The notes below the pieces were generated by a model that was not told the DNA's origin, ran no database searches, and saw only the letters and a program-made list of their open reading frames with translations. A stretch of DNA of 47,527 nt from Candidatus Saccharimonadota bacterium. Lineage in GTDB: Bacteria; Patescibacteriota; Saccharimonadia; Saccharimonadales; Saccharimonadaceae. Position 1 is the first letter of the stretch; each line of letters opens with the position of its first letter. The stretch spans positions 1 to 47,527 of the forward strand of contig JAFWIY010000005.1 of assembly GCA_017514675.1 (NCBI GenBank). Reading direction: 5' to 3'. This document shows, one piece after another, positions 7,414 through 33,917 of this stretch. The position numbers and the translations under genes were made by a program.

Positions 7414-9144
7414 ATGCTAGAGTTATTGTATAACAAGGTTAAAAACACTTTACGAAAGATCGATATGCGTTTAGAGCGTGCCAAATATGGCTATATCGAC
7501 AAGTTACCGAAAAATATTGAATATTTTAACGGCGGGCTTTACGATGCGATTTACGAAGCCTCCTGCAAATGGCCACACAATGTCGCCTTAGAATATTTTG
7601 ACACTCAAATCACTTACAAAGAACTTATCAAAAAAATCAACAAAGTTGCCGCCGCTCTTAAAGCTATCGGCGCCGAAAAAGGCGAAAATATCACGATTTG
7701 CATGCCAAACACGCCAGAAAGCATTTATATGTTTTATGCGGTAAACGAAATTGGTGCGGTCGCCAACATGGTCCATCCCCTCTCTTCCGAAAAAGAAATT
7801 GAGGATTATCTCGTACAGGCTAATTCCAAAATTATGCTATGTATTGACATTGCCTATCCCAAAACCGAAGCCATTATCAAAAATACCAACGTAGAACAAG
7901 TCGTGGTAGTTTCCGCCACTCGCTCAATGGATTTTCTGATTCGCGCCATTTACAAAATCACCAAAGGTCGCAAAAACCACGTCAAGAAAAGTCAGCACGT
8001 CATTACATGGGATAAGTTTTTAAACAAAGCCAACAGGTATATTGGCAACCCTCACGCGCGCGTCGATTCGGATGACGCCGCCGTCATCATGTATTCTGGC
8101 GGCACTACCGGCAAACCCAAAGGCGTAATCCTTTCTAACCTCAATTTCAACGCTCAAGCTCTAGGTGCTAAATATCTCGTACCAGAGCTCATTAAGTCAA
8201 ACTATGCCTTTCTTACCTTCTTGCCGAATTTTCATGCCTTTGGTCTAGGCGTTTGTATTCATTTGCCACTATATTTTGGGAGTAAAATCGTTTTAATCCC
8301 ACAATTCAACGCTAAGAAACTAAAGAATTACATTAAAAAATATAAAATAAACATCCTAGTTGGCGTACCTACGGTCTTTGATTATCTTACCAAAATAAAA
8401 TTCAAGAAAAATGAATTAAAATGCATTAAAGCTGTAGTTTCTGGTGGCGACATCATTAGTATGTCCAGCAAAACCCGCATCAATGATTTTCTAAAGGAGC
8501 ACGGCTCCAAAGCAGTCATCGAAAACGGCTACGGTCTTACCGAGGCTTCTGGCGGCTTTATCTTTTCACCCCGCAGCGTAGCCGAAGAAGCCGATACTAT
8601 TGGCTTCCCTATACCAGACAACGATGTTCGTATTGTAAATATCAAGACCGGCAAAGAAGCCGATCTCGGCGAAGATGGAGAAATTGTAGTACGCGGACTT
8701 TCGGTAATGAAGGGATACTTAAATAAACCCAAAGAAACCGAGCAGGCTTTTATTAAACTTCGCAACAAAAAATACCTTCGCACGGGCGATATTGGCTACA
8801 TGGATCAGCGCGGCGTAATACATTTTCGCTCGCGCTTAAAGCGCATGATTATCACCAATGGCTACAATGTCTATCCAGCCAATATAGAAGATGCTACTTT
8901 GAAATGCGAACTCATCGCAAGTTGCGCCGTAGTCGGAAAAGAAGATGCTTTGCGTGGCGAAAAGATTGTTACCTTCGCCGTATTAAAAGAAAACGCTTCC
9001 GAACGCGCCGCTAGAAAAGAATTGGCAGGCATTTACAAAAAATACCTCGCCAAATACGAAATTCCGCGCGAAATCCGCTTCATCCCAGAACTCCCCAAAA
9101 CCAAACTCGCTAAAGTAGACTTTAAAAAACTGGAAGACTTGTAG
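7414..9144 (+). CDS. AMP-dependent synthetase/ligase (probable long-chain acyl-CoA or acyl-ACP synthetase)
   Basis: A 576-aa ANL-superfamily adenylating enzyme. The P-loop-like motif YSGGTTGKPKGV, the adenine-site motif NGYGLTEASG, and the TGDIGY and R-L-K-R-M-I-I-T-N-G-Y-N-V motifs with a C-terminal Lys (PKTKLAKVDF) are in the usual order. These give acyl-adenylate formation followed by thioester transfer. No N-terminal signal peptide is seen. The neighbours make CDP-diacylglycerol and phosphatidylglycerol, so activation of scavenged fatty acids is a reasonable inference. The substrate is not fixed by sequence. The last codons (D-L-stop) lie inside the arm of a palindromic element shared with recR. 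Confidence 0.85.
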   Translation: MLELLYNKVKNTLRKIDMRLERAKYGYIDKLPKNIEYFNGGLYDAIYEASCKWPHNVALEYFDTQITYKELIKKINKVAAALKAIGAEKGENITICMPNTPESIYMFYAVNEIGAVANMVHPLSSEKEIEDYLVQANSKIMLCIDIAYPKTEAIIKNTNVEQVVVVSATRSMDFLIRAIYKITKGRKNHVKKSQHVITWDKFLNKANRYIGNPHARVDSDDAAVIMYSGGTTGKPKGVILSNLNFNAQALGAKYLVPELIKSNYAFLTFLPNFHAFGLGVCIHLPLYFGSKIVLIPQFNAKKLKNYIKKYKINILVGVPTVFDYLTKIKFKKNELKCIKAVVSGGDIISMSSKTRINDFLKEHGSKAVIENGYGLTEASGGFIFSPRSVAEEADTIGFPIPDNDVRIVNIKTGKEADLGEDGEIVVRGLSVMKGYLNKPKETEQAFIKLRNKKYLRTGDIGYMDQRGVIHFRSRLKRMIITNGYNVYPANIEDATLKCELIASCAVVGKEDALRGEKIVTFAVLKENASERAARKELAGIYKKYLAKYEIPREIRFIPELPKTKLAKVDFKKLEDL

Positions 9145-9248
9145 GCGGGTGGCCGAAACCTATCTTTCGAAGGGCCTAAGACTTGGGCGAGCGCCTTGGG
9201 AGCTGCGCCCGAGAAAGATAGGTTCGGACAGGACCCGCCTACAAGTCT
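9135..9248. repeat. Palindromic element type II, copy C, carrying both convergent stop codons
   Basis: The 16-bp perfect arms AGACTTGTAGGCGGGT (9135-9150) and its complement (9233-9248) encode the final Asp-Leu-stop of both the acyl-activating enzyme (+) and recR (-). An inner stem of 12 bp (about 9158-9169 with 9213-9224) encloses a GC-rich centre. On the minus strand the first arm is followed by CCTGTCCG, similar to CCTGCCG at the same place in the pheT copies. There is no T run, so a bidirectional terminator function is possible but not shown. Confidence 0.8.
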
Positions 9249-21546: not shown

Positions 21547-24099
21547 CTACAAGTTTTCTAAAATCGGCATGATTTTTTCATCAAATTTGGTAAATTCTAA
21601 ATGCAAGGTCATATTTTTTTCACTAGCGCCTTCTGGCTGGTAAATCGCTCCCGGCATAATCTCCGCCTCGTAGCCATTTTCGCAAATTACTTCATGCACT
21701 CTTTTTGCAATCTCGCCGTAAGTCTTGGCAGTTTTTATCGTAAGGTCACGCATTTCTTTTTTAATAAAGTTTATATTCTTATGATGCGCCTTATTTTTGC
21801 AAAGTAGCTCCAGATCAATCTCAAACCCAGCCGTATAATCACCAAGCTTAAAATCATTTTTCACTGAATTTTTAAATTCGCCCACCACGCCCAGCACTTC
21901 GCCATTTTCTAGAACTACTTCGGCCGAACGCTTCGACTCAAACGGTTGCGCCATCGGCGAATGATTTTTTAGTGGCACATACGACACGTTTACGCCAAAA
22001 TGTTTCAGGAGTAAATCCAAATACTTTTTGGCTTTGTAAAAGGCAGTTTCGCTATTTTTTCGTTCTGCCACCACAAAGCCTAAATTAATTTTCTCAACCG
22101 GCACTTCCTCATCATCAAACCCCAAGTCTTTCTGATAGACTTTATTCATTTCAAAAATCGCAAACTTATCTACTGGCAACTTGATATTTAGATACGCCTT
22201 ATCTAGGAGGCTCGGCACCAGCGTTTGCCGCACCAATTGCAAATCTGGCGAAATTGAATTGACAATTTTATAGGAATTACTTTTCTTTAACCCGGCCTTT
22301 TCTAATAATTTTTCGCTTACGAAACTATAAGTTAATACTTCGTTTGTGCCAAACTTCGCCAGCAAGTCCCTTACTTCGTGTTTAAACTCAAAAATCTCAT
22401 CTCTATTAGCTGTGCCGTGTAGCGGCAAAGAAAGCTGGATATTCTCATATCCCAAAAGCCGCCCGACTTCCTCAATAATGTCTTCCTTGATATGAATATC
22501 TGTCCGCCAGATTGGGCTTTCGATAACTAGCTGCTCGACGGGTCCTGCCGCCGCAGCTTCCCCCACCGTGCTCGCCTCACGGCTGCGCGCGGCGGGGGTC
22601 CCCCCAGCGGCGTCACCCGTCGATGTAATACCAAATCCAACATTTTCCAAAGTCCTAACTATCAAATCCTTACTATAGTCAGTACCAAGCAAACCATTAA
22701 TTTCATCTGTTGTAATTTTTACAACGGTTCCACCATGATATCCTGGCCAGGCATCATTCAAGTCTACTGGCTCGGCATTCATTTGGCGCACCGCCTCCGC
22801 CAGCACATTGTAAGTTTCACTAGCTGGCACACCCTTTGTAAACCTCGTAATCGCCTCACTAAAAATCCCGTGCGCCATTTGTGTCTTGCGCAAATTATAC
22901 AAACTAAATGTCGCCGACTCTATCAAAACATTTTTTGTCCCCTCATCAATTTCGGTATTCGCACCCCCCATCGCCCCAGCCAGTGCCACTGGCACATCAT
23001 TTGAAGTAATCAAAATATCATTTTCATTGCAAATCACTTCCTTACCATCGAGCAGTACTAACTTTTCGCCCGGCCGAGCCGCCCTAACAATTATCTTCGG
23101 ATTCTCGGTTTGCCCCACCGCTACAAATTTATCTCTATCAAACGCGTGTAATGGTTGACCTGTCAAAAGCATCAAATAATTTGTAATATCTACAATCCGA
23201 GAAACCGACTGCATCCCGGACTTCGCGATTAGAACCCGCATTTTGGTCAAATATTTTTCCTCAACCACCGCCTGCGCGACCTTAACCTCCGCACAGGTAT
23301 AACGCGGACAAATCTCCGAGTCGGTAATAGCAATTTTGATGTTGGAGTTTTCTGAAATCTGTTTTTCTCGAAGCGTACCATGATTTGAATTTTCAACACG
23401 TATATTCCTGCCGGACCCGAGAGGTTCGTCCCGAAGGGACGGTTCTCTCGGCGTCCCAGCGTATGACGTGCTTGAAAATTCAAGTCCAGCTGGGGGAAAA
23501 ATAGGTTCAGAAAACTTAACGCCCAATATCCCCGCCACCTCGCGCGCAAACCCAATAATCCCAAAACAATCCGGCCGGTGCGTCAGAGATTTGTTTTCAA
23601 TTTCCAAAATCAAATCATTTAAATTAAATACATCCGCAAGCAAATCTCCTGGCTTCGCAATTTCTGGATCAATTTCCACAATCCCAGAATGATCGCCGCC
23701 AAAATCTAGTTCATCTGCGCCCGCCAACATCCCATTAGAATCATATTTACCAAGCATTTTTCGCTTACCAATCACGAATGGAGCATCTTCATGCACGCTT
23801 GCCGGCACTATCGCGCCCGGGGCAATCCAGGCCGCTAACATTCCTGCGCGCACATTCGGCGCACCACATACCACCTGCACCAACTCTTCACCACCATCAT
23901 TTATTTGGCAAAGCGTCAAATGCGTGCCAGGTATCTTTTCGGCAGTTTCTACCTTCACTACCTTAATTTTGTCATATTTATGCGTTTCATCAATTACGCC
24001 CTCTACTTCTACCAATCTCGCACCAATCAAGCGTGTCAGCTCATCATCCGGCACTTTTACATCTACATATTCTTTTAGCCAATTCAAACTAATTTTCAT
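21547..24099 (-). CDS. pheT: Phenylalanyl-tRNA synthetase beta subunit with two palindromic in-frame inserts
   Basis: An 850-aa subunit of the (alpha-beta)2 enzyme. In order: the tRNA-binding OB domain (about 40-150, with VVCGAPNVRAG), B3/B4 editing domain (about 260-470), B5 domain, catalytic-like core and the C-terminal FDX-ACB domain (about 755-850). Two segments do not align with what I expect of the family. Residues about 206-239 lie between the B1 region and the IKIAITDSEICPRY strand. Residues about 493-522 lie just before ESPIWRTDIHIKEDIIEEVG. Both are encoded by palindromic DNA (23385-23483 and 22535-22623). The gene starts 1 bp after pheS. Confidence 0.96.
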   Translation of the reverse strand: MKISLNWLKEYVDVKVPDDELTRLIGARLVEVEGVIDETHKYDKIKVVKVETAEKIPGTHLTLCQINDGGEELVQVVCGAPNVRAGMLAAWIAPGAIVPASVHEDAPFVIGKRKMLGKYDSNGMLAGADELDFGGDHSGIVEIDPEIAKPGDLLADVFNLNDLILEIENKSLTHRPDCFGIIGFAREVAGILGVKFSEPIFPPAGLEFSSTSYAGTPREPSLRDEPLGSGRNIRVENSNHGTLREKQISENSNIKIAITDSEICPRYTCAEVKVAQAVVEEKYLTKMRVLIAKSGMQSVSRIVDITNYLMLLTGQPLHAFDRDKFVAVGQTENPKIIVRAARPGEKLVLLDGKEVICNENDILITSNDVPVALAGAMGGANTEIDEGTKNVLIESATFSLYNLRKTQMAHGIFSEAITRFTKGVPASETYNVLAEAVRQMNAEPVDLNDAWPGYHGGTVVKITTDEINGLLGTDYSKDLIVRTLENVGFGITSTGDAAGGTPAARSREASTVGEAAAAGPVEQLVIESPIWRTDIHIKEDIIEEVGRLLGYENIQLSLPLHGTANRDEIFEFKHEVRDLLAKFGTNEVLTYSFVSEKLLEKAGLKKSNSYKIVNSISPDLQLVRQTLVPSLLDKAYLNIKLPVDKFAIFEMNKVYQKDLGFDDEEVPVEKINLGFVVAERKNSETAFYKAKKYLDLLLKHFGVNVSYVPLKNHSPMAQPFESKRSAEVVLENGEVLGVVGEFKNSVKNDFKLGDYTAGFEIDLELLCKNKAHHKNINFIKKEMRDLTIKTAKTYGEIAKRVHEVICENGYEAEIMPGAIYQPEGASEKNMTLHLEFTKFDEKIMPILENL
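22535..22623. repeat. Palindromic element type II, copy E, inside pheT
   Basis: Outer arms TCGACGGGT (22535-22543) and ACCCGTCGA (22615-22623) pair perfectly. Inner pairings are GCCGC with GCGGC, CCCCC with GGGGG, and a central hairpin CCGTG/CACGG. The first arm is followed by CCTGCCG. It is much richer in GC than the surrounding gene. It encodes about 30 Ala/Gly/Thr-rich residues without breaking the frame. Confidence 0.82.
23385..23483. repeat. Palindromic element type II, copy F, inside pheT
   Basis: A 99-bp (33-codon) palindrome. The arms TTGAATTTTCAA (23385-23396) and TTGAAAATTCAA (23472-23483) pair, with CACGT/ACGTG continuing inward. The centre is a hairpin of about 16 bp with some mismatches, closing on CCC-GAA-GGG (about 23418-23452). 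The first arm is followed by ATTCCTGCCGGAC. The reading frame is preserved. Confidence 0.82.
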
Positions 24100-32495: not shown

Positions 32496-33917
32496 TTAAT
32501 AATCTGTGTCAAAAAGCGACTCAAAATAAAGTTTTAATTCCTCACCAATATAATCATCTTGCTCGTAAACTTTTTCTAGCTCGCTCATGAATTTCGGCGC
32601 TAGGCGCTCTAGTCTAGCTCGGCGATACTTTTTATAAGCCTCTGCCTCCTTTTCCGACAAACTCTCCGGAAAGTTACGCCCCTTGTAATGCAAAAGCAAT
32701 TCCGGCAGCCTTTCATCGTTGAACTCTGGGTGAAAATCCGCGAGCTCCTCAGGCCTAGCATTTCGTACCGCCGCTACTTTTACACGATCATTATCGTTCA
32801 AGAACCCATCATAAAGCGCCGCTTCGGGCTCCACCGCCGGCGGAAACTCCGGCCGATTCTCGTTTTCTTCGCGCATTTTCTCCGCAAACTCCGGGTGCTT
32901 TAATAAAATCTCCAAATTTTTCTCTATGGTTTCTTTATTTAGTCCAATCTTTTTCCACCCATCCTGCTCGTCCAGCACGCTAATCGGCGCCACCGCCGGA
33001 CACTTATTAAAACACAGCTCCTTTACGACGGGGTAGGCCGAAGCCCTACTCACAGCGTGTCCTTCGGACACGCTCCGGGCCGCTCTGGCCAAGTCTTCAT
33101 GTTCCGCAGAACACCCAGTGAGTAGGCCTTCGGCCTCCATGTCGTATCTCAAATCATATACTAATACGTTGCCATTACGCCCGCTCGTCAGCGGAAATGC
33201 GACAGTTGTTTTGTTGAATTCATTTGCATATCTACCCGAAGCATAAACAAACGGCTTTTTGTTCTCTAGATTCACTAATTTCTTTACCTCATTTTTCCCC
33301 CGCATCTTAAATAAATAATCAAACAGTTTCGGCTGCTTCTCCCGAATCAGCCTAGCCACCGCGATTGTCGCATAAACATCCGAAAGCGCATCGTGCGCGT
33401 GCTCGTGCGAGATACCATTTAGCTTCGTGATGAGTTCCAACCGATTAGTCGGCGCCCCATCCTCACGAAACGGCCATTCTATTCCTTCTGGCCGAAGCGC
33501 CCGGGTTAAGCGCACTACATCCAGCATGTCCCAGCGGCTTCGCTCATCCTTCCACTGCCATTCGTATGGGTCGTAAAAGTTTCGCCAAAACACCGCCCGC
33601 ATAAACTCATCATCAAACCGCACTGTGTTATATCCTACCGCCACTGTACCAGGCGTAAAAATCTCCTCGCTCACATATTTACAAAACTCCGCCTCACTAA
33701 TTCCATCGCGCAAAGTCTCCTGCGGCGTAATTTTAGTTACCATTATCGCCCCCGGGCTCGGCAAAGCATCATCCGACAGCCGCACTAAAATATTCACCGG
33801 CTCGCCTATCGGTTTTAAATCCATATCAGTCCGCTGCCCCGCGAATTGCATAATCCGATCCTCACGAGGATTAAGCCCCGACGTCTCCAAGTCATAAAAG
33901 AAAAAACTCTGTTTCAT
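32496..33917 (-). CDS. sbcB: Exonuclease I (SbcB-like) with an in-frame palindromic insert
   Basis: A 473-aa 3'-5' single-strand DNA exonuclease. The DEDDh motifs are DLET (Asp9, Glu11), NTVRFDDEFMR and H-D-A-L-S-D. The SH3-like and C-terminal domains follow, with CFNKCPAVAP matching the VHINKCPVLA region of E. coli ExoI. Residues 258-298, directly before that motif, are encoded by a 123-bp palindrome (33024-33146), and the region is about 9 residues longer than in E. coli. The start overlaps the KilA-N gene by 4 bp (ATGA). Confidence 0.9.
   Translation of the reverse strand: MKQSFFFYDLETSGLNPREDRIMQFAGQRTDMDLKPIGEPVNILVRLSDDALPSPGAIMVTKITPQETLRDGISEAEFCKYVSEEIFTPGTVAVGYNTVRFDDEFMRAVFWRNFYDPYEWQWKDERSRWDMLDVVRLTRALRPEGIEWPFREDGAPTNRLELITKLNGISHEHAHDALSDVYATIAVARLIREKQPKLFDYLFKMRGKNEVKKLVNLENKKPFVYASGRYANEFNKTTVAFPLTSGRNGNVLVYDLRYDMEAEGLLTGCSAEHEDLARAARSVSEGHAVSRASAYPVVKELCFNKCPAVAPISVLDEQDGWKKIGLNKETIEKNLEILLKHPEFAEKMREENENRPEFPPAVEPEAALYDGFLNDNDRVKVAAVRNARPEELADFHPEFNDERLPELLLHYKGRNFPESLSEKEAEAYKKYRRARLERLAPKFMSELEKVYEQDDYIGEELKLYFESLFDTDY
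33024..33146. repeat. Palindromic element type II, copy G, inside sbcB
   Basis: A 123-bp (41-codon) element. Arms 33024-33053 and 33118-33146 pair over almost 30 bp with a few mismatches, and each arm is itself a hairpin (AGGCC-gaa-GGCCT type). Three hairpins fill the middle: AGCGTGTCC-ttc-GGACACGCT (perfect), GGCC-gctct-GGCC, and TGTTC-cgca-GAACA. The predicted shape is a four-way junction. On the minus strand the arm is followed by GGGTGTTCTGCGGAAC, loosely like the box of copies C, E and F. Confidence 0.85.

Follow-up and report, generated by a model that had tools for sequence, protein, structure and literature searches.

A GC-rich palindrome in the pheT gene of a Saccharibacterium, a probable copy of a dispersed element resembling Rickettsia palindromic elements

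The closest described counterparts of the element analyzed here are the palindromic elements of Rickettsia (RPE-1 to RPE-10) and of Wolbachia, which, in the excerpts of the literature drawn on, appear as short palindromes of several families that lie in frame within conserved genes and leave these unbroken, traits that all recur in the present case. The length of an RPE is given in the portions of the published accounts used here as 105-146 bp or ~150 bp (PMC2229807, PMC10969869). In Rickettsia japonica, the relevant part of the genome account places RPE-7 in the phenylalanyl-tRNA synthetase beta subunit and RPE-4 in tRNA ribosyltransferase-isomerase, queA (PMC3767692); a QueA-like insertion site was also seen for the element described below, the gene name being judged from residues.

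The element was recognized in a window of 47,527 nucleotides (the whole stretch of DNA that was analyzed), where it lies inside pheT (Table 1). The gene product is regarded as a bona fide PheT because its match to TIGR00472 (NCBIfam) scores 459.9 bits, above the cut-off of 402.65; it contains the Pfam domains B3_4, B5, CLM and tRNA_bind, and a search of the assembly (a MAG of 632 kb, 84% complete) gave no second pheT. A GC-rich palindromic insert had been predicted at positions 22535-22623 of this gene, and an imperfect inverted repeat of 89 nt was found at exactly these coordinates. The coding (minus) strand of the segment folds with a calculated energy of -68.3 kcal/mol; dinucleotide shuffling, repeated 200 times, gave -47.9 +/- 3.9 kcal/mol (z = -5.25), and not one shuffle equalled the native value. 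The anticipated contrast in base composition is also borne out, with a GC fraction of 0.81 in the 81-nt element versus 0.43 across the remainder of pheT, and no stretch of equal length elsewhere in the window reaches the GC content of the element. The residues that it encodes, STGDAAGGTPAARSREASTVGEAAAAGPVEQ, directly precede the ESPIWRTDI motif and are rich in Ala, Gly and Thr, as had been claimed. In an AlphaFold2 model of PheT (mean pLDDT 81.3), residues 496-519, which correspond to the insert, have pLDDT values below 50 and lie between strands 490-493 and 523-527; the ~27 insert residues are predicted to be disordered in an otherwise well-folded protein. PheT should therefore still fold, because the insert is placed between two beta strands and is itself predicted to lack order.

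Table 1. Coordinates of the pheT element, its host gene and other features of the window.
Feature	Position	Strand	Remarks
pheT, phenylalanine--tRNA ligase beta subunit (host gene)	21547..24099	-	850 aa
Element proper, C-GGGTGAC...GGCAGGACCC-G, long interrupted hairpin	22539..22619	-	81 nt = 27 codons
Copy-specific inverted arm TCGA, downstream side in coding orientation	22535..22538	-	arms complementary per copy
Copy-specific inverted arm TCGA, upstream side in coding orientation	22620..22623	-	arms complementary per copy
Second palindromic insert in pheT, different family	23382..23486	-	fold z -6.85, single copy in genome
Probable diverged family member, GGGTGGCCGA...GGACAGGACCC	9135..9248	+	R1 match

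PheT proteins were extracted, where possible, from 80 related loci, and in nearly all of them only a short loop precedes ESPIWRTDI. One relative (L097) has an unrelated insert at this place, and a single distant relative (L114) carries a related peptide, which is encoded by a homologous palindrome scoring 80.3 bits. No relative was seen to encode the same residues in non-palindromic DNA, and nearly all of them lack these residues altogether. The assertion that pheT holds two palindromes is likewise correct, although the second is a member of another family. It corresponds to PheT residues 202-249, which have pLDDT values below 50 in the AlphaFold2 model and are predicted to be disordered; a similar peptide occurs at the same place in a Saccharibacterium from roe deer (L057) and is missing from the 83%-identical relative of the latter (L110).

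Other palindromes were observed in the window and in the genus. An imperfect inverted repeat with 34-nt arms, 85% complementary, is located at 33035-33136 of the window. The MnmA loop that follows ATGHYA contains many different palindromic or low-complexity inserts of apparently unrelated families (L193-L210), and judging from this loop the genus seems to host several active families of elements. Furthermore, a repeat peptide encoded by mnmA, GARQRENQRRTPVATGRADAARK (about residues 374-412 of L004), matches many sites in this and other genomes of the genus and probably represents another multi-copy family.

The pheT palindrome is not a product of chance, since four further copies share its genome, and together with the fold statistics these copies support the earlier contention that a palindromic insert occupies an essential gene beyond chance expectation. 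The original prediction was thus right about the insert, while the lineage-wide, multi-copy family to which it belongs and its insertion-specific arms went unseen there. The five copies, which are 71-100% identical at the DNA level, are all in frame within genes (pheT, a DAGK-domain gene, murB, mnmA and tlyA). The mnmA copy is located on a contig (C26) that could be a contaminant, because it is short and the same 84%-complete MAG holds a second mnmA; the two mnmA genes in this MAG (G000:C26:455-1837 and G000:C22:10963-12219) are 67% identical. A covariance model built on the five genomic copies (R1) detects the family in 84/174 genomes of the genus, with a maximum of 21 matches per genome, as well as in a minority of the other genera within the host's family of Saccharibacteria, and finds relatives in 15/380 genomes scattered over other families of the phylum. 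Among named relatives, the nearest are Candidatus Saccharibacteria, mainly from the ruminant gut, and a homologue search of plasmids and phages gave chance-level matches or none. Within the window, R1 matches one further segment (23.6 bits, genome-wide E 0.006), which has perfect outer arms of 16 nt without a long ORF spanning it, and this is a probable diverged member of the family. Very probably, the pheT feature is a single copy of a dispersed palindromic element which is non-autonomous, inserts itself into protein-coding genes and works in the manner of an RPE.

The anatomy of the element was derived from 133 distinct copies, over which the core extends from GGGTGAC to GGCAGGACCC. Outside the core, Watson-Crick pairing between the flanks is found in 75-95% of copies at positions 1-5 and in 27% at position 6. 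Perfect 5-nt inverted arms are present in 77/133 copies and comprise 27 different arm sequences, versus 5.1 perfect-arm copies on average, and never more than 13, in 2000 trials with shuffled right arms. When copies from one genome whose cores share at least 90% identity are compared (69 pairs), the identity of the flanks is 0.94-0.99 at position 1 and 0.38-0.72 at positions 2-5. Because near-identical copies lose identity past the C/G pair, the element proper is taken to be C-core-G, amounting to 81 nt in pheT. The possibility that the arms are an inherited part of the element is rejected, since near-identical copies bear different arms, which indicates that the arms are acquired at each insertion. 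As for direct target-site duplication, which characterizes MITEs, the 133 copies show no clear excess of flank-to-flank base identity. Of the 33 pairs in the consensus fold, 9 show compensatory change; covariation is seen in the tip and middle stems, and across the phylum the internal motifs are kept while the stems differ. In phylum-wide relatives (L344-L350), GCGCGCA...GAGCA and CAGGACC are shared and the stems different, a pattern of the kind expected for a structured RNA or a recognition hairpin.

The copies show no sign of being actively targeted to genes, because 103 (79%) of the 130 with enough flank fall within ORFs of 150 aa or longer, compared with 86% of random positions of the same loci. 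Within these ORFs, 88/103 elements have a core length of 1 mod 3, versus 9/27 outside them, a length that preserves the frame if the net gain equals the core plus 2 (81 nt in pheT) or plus 5 (84 nt in pheT). The choice of frame is also uneven: the two frames that yield small, flexible peptides of Ala, Gly, Ser, Thr and Pro are used by 74 of the 84 in-frame copies, where 33.9 would be expected if all open frames were equal. Translational bypass or splicing is disfavoured by the codon-multiple lengths within genes.

Most orthologues of the host genes are without the element. Relatives of MnmA and MurB have a short loop in many cases, this element in some and other inserts in others, and sister genomes that are ~92% identical can carry different palindromes at one site. 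Loops surrounding the insertions are remodelled even between genomes this similar, and a comparison over about 40 kb of sister-genome sequence with ~92% identity yielded no clean empty site for a single insertion of the R1 family. In the absence of such a clean, closely related empty site, the exact junction and the net length are only inferred. Projected net lengths scatter widely, the commonest being 78-87 nt for a 79-nt core, and lengths of empty sites relative to the core are commonly +1, -2, -5 and -8, too noisy to choose between insertion models. Elsewhere, a clean presence/absence of 117 nt with a palindromic middle separates two ~92%-identical genomes (G181 and G334; L293 at about position 753 versus L294), possibly a clean empty site for another element.

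A scheme that would account for these features is one in which an enzyme acting in trans recognizes the conserved ends and the internal loops of the hairpin, mobilizes the element and inserts it without target duplication. Insertion might take place on the symmetry axis of a short palindrome already present, with a net gain of 81 nt, or might generate a 5-nt inverted copy of one flank, with a net gain of 84 nt; either would keep the frame. A model in which both arms are carried in and nothing else is changed is rejected, as the net gain of 89 nt would be out of frame. Genic copies would then survive because whole codons without stops are added, and would be tolerated because those codons specify small residues, so that a benefit to the host need not be assumed. 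A bolder extension, which we put forward only tentatively, is that the family belongs to a superfamily of structured selfish elements that spans the Patescibacteria and in which every insertion builds the 5-nt inverted arms anew from the target, either by fold-back copying of a flank or by insertion at a palindrome axis. If true, it would imply that these elements transpose by a chemistry different from the routes known for other small repeats (DDE, Y1/RAYT and target-primed).

Covarying stems and conserved internal loops are also a pattern reminiscent of RNA, and would suit spread by reverse transcription, in which a resident reverse transcriptase copies the hairpin RNA into DNA. RVT_1 is present in 13/20 element-rich genomes, including that of the window (where the reverse transcriptase domain was observed at G000:C10:7731-8441). 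However, the remaining seven are without RVT_1, among them G195 (98% complete), G333 (97%) and G306 (95%), which weakens any requirement for a reverse transcriptase, and those of the carriers may belong to diversity-generating retroelements. Furthermore, 5'-truncated copies, a sign of retro-insertion, are not in excess, solo 3' ends being no more numerous than solo 5' motifs, although both counts are noisy. Reverse transcription is consequently an unlikely means of spread.

A domain or regulatory RNA under selection, serving the host as a peptide or a structured RNA, could in turn explain why the internal motifs are conserved phylum-wide despite different stems and why two peptide frames are so strongly preferred. 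Against this improbable reading, the element is found in both orientations in enzymes that are unrelated to one another, and is missing from the majority of their orthologues; the preferred peptides are of low complexity and predicted to be disordered, and no curated structured-RNA family in Rfam matches the element. It is highly unlikely that the copies are immobile, ancient insertions that have been inherited and sporadically lost: several insertions are indeed common to orthologues (tlyA in G000 and G181; the DAGK-domain gene in G000, G267 and G334), but each species has subfamilies of its own, inserted at many sites that are not orthologous, cores within a genome are >95% identical, and the arms differ between copies. 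A REP/BIME-type repeat, mobilized as a single-stranded hairpin by a RAYT (Y1/TnpA_REP) transposase, would fit the conserved ends of the hairpin and the lack of direct target duplication, but is most improbable and is rejected as far as Pfam-recognizable Y1 proteins are concerned, since PF01797 occurs in only 2/60 genomes of the genus (G235 and G220), both without an R1 match, is lacking from the element-rich genomes among the 60, and was detected in 5/14 control genomes by the same search.

The reading of the pheT palindrome as one copy of a mobile, non-autonomous element has practical consequences. With more than 130 copies bearing insertion-specific arms, the way in which such elements move becomes directly testable, and unaligned, disordered inserts of element origin are to be expected in the annotation of Saccharibacterial proteins. 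No earlier report of such elements in Saccharibacteria or Patescibacteria was found among the open-licence papers searched, which is weak evidence of novelty.

Several classes of small repeat resemble the element in part. The GC clusters of yeast mitochondrial DNA are GC-rich palindromes in AT-richer DNA, some of them in frame (var1), but these are shorter, reside in an organelle and have another target. REP/BIME repeats are likewise dispersed hairpins whose ends lack direct repeats; in contrast, the present element lies mainly inside genes, is about 81 nt long, and its carriers are without a Y1 transposase. Bacterial MITEs (Correia/NEMIS, RUP, ERIC) are, in the portions of the accounts used here, small, non-autonomous and structured, and sometimes intragenic with in-frame ORF fusions (PMC2229807, PMC10969869), whereas the element described here has neither a target-site duplication nor TA termini. 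Its ends are inverted (GGGT/ACCC), and no related transposon was found in a search covering the Y1 and RVT_1 families.

Compared with all of these, the RPEs stand closest. As in RPEs, there is one long stem-loop, which is dispersed in many copies and lies in frame within conserved genes with a preferred peptide frame, and, in the RPE descriptions drawn on, different families also replace one another at one site. The element differs in being shorter (81 nt) and very GC-rich, judged against those descriptions, and in its insertion-specific 5-nt inverted arms, on which the same excerpts are silent. Its hosts are Patescibacteria rather than Alphaproteobacteria, the relatives of the host being Candidatus Saccharibacteria and not Rickettsia or Wolbachia, and because of this difference in lineage the element is RPE-like and not an RPE, likened by behaviour and not by sequence homology. 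Selfish DNA that spreads via harmless loops in essential proteins was previously known mainly from Rickettsia and Wolbachia; its occurrence across a genus of the unrelated, tiny-genome Saccharibacteria therefore points to a recurrent strategy in reduced genomes, with pheT hit in both lineages, on the Rickettsia side in the portion of the R. japonica account drawn on (PMC3767692).
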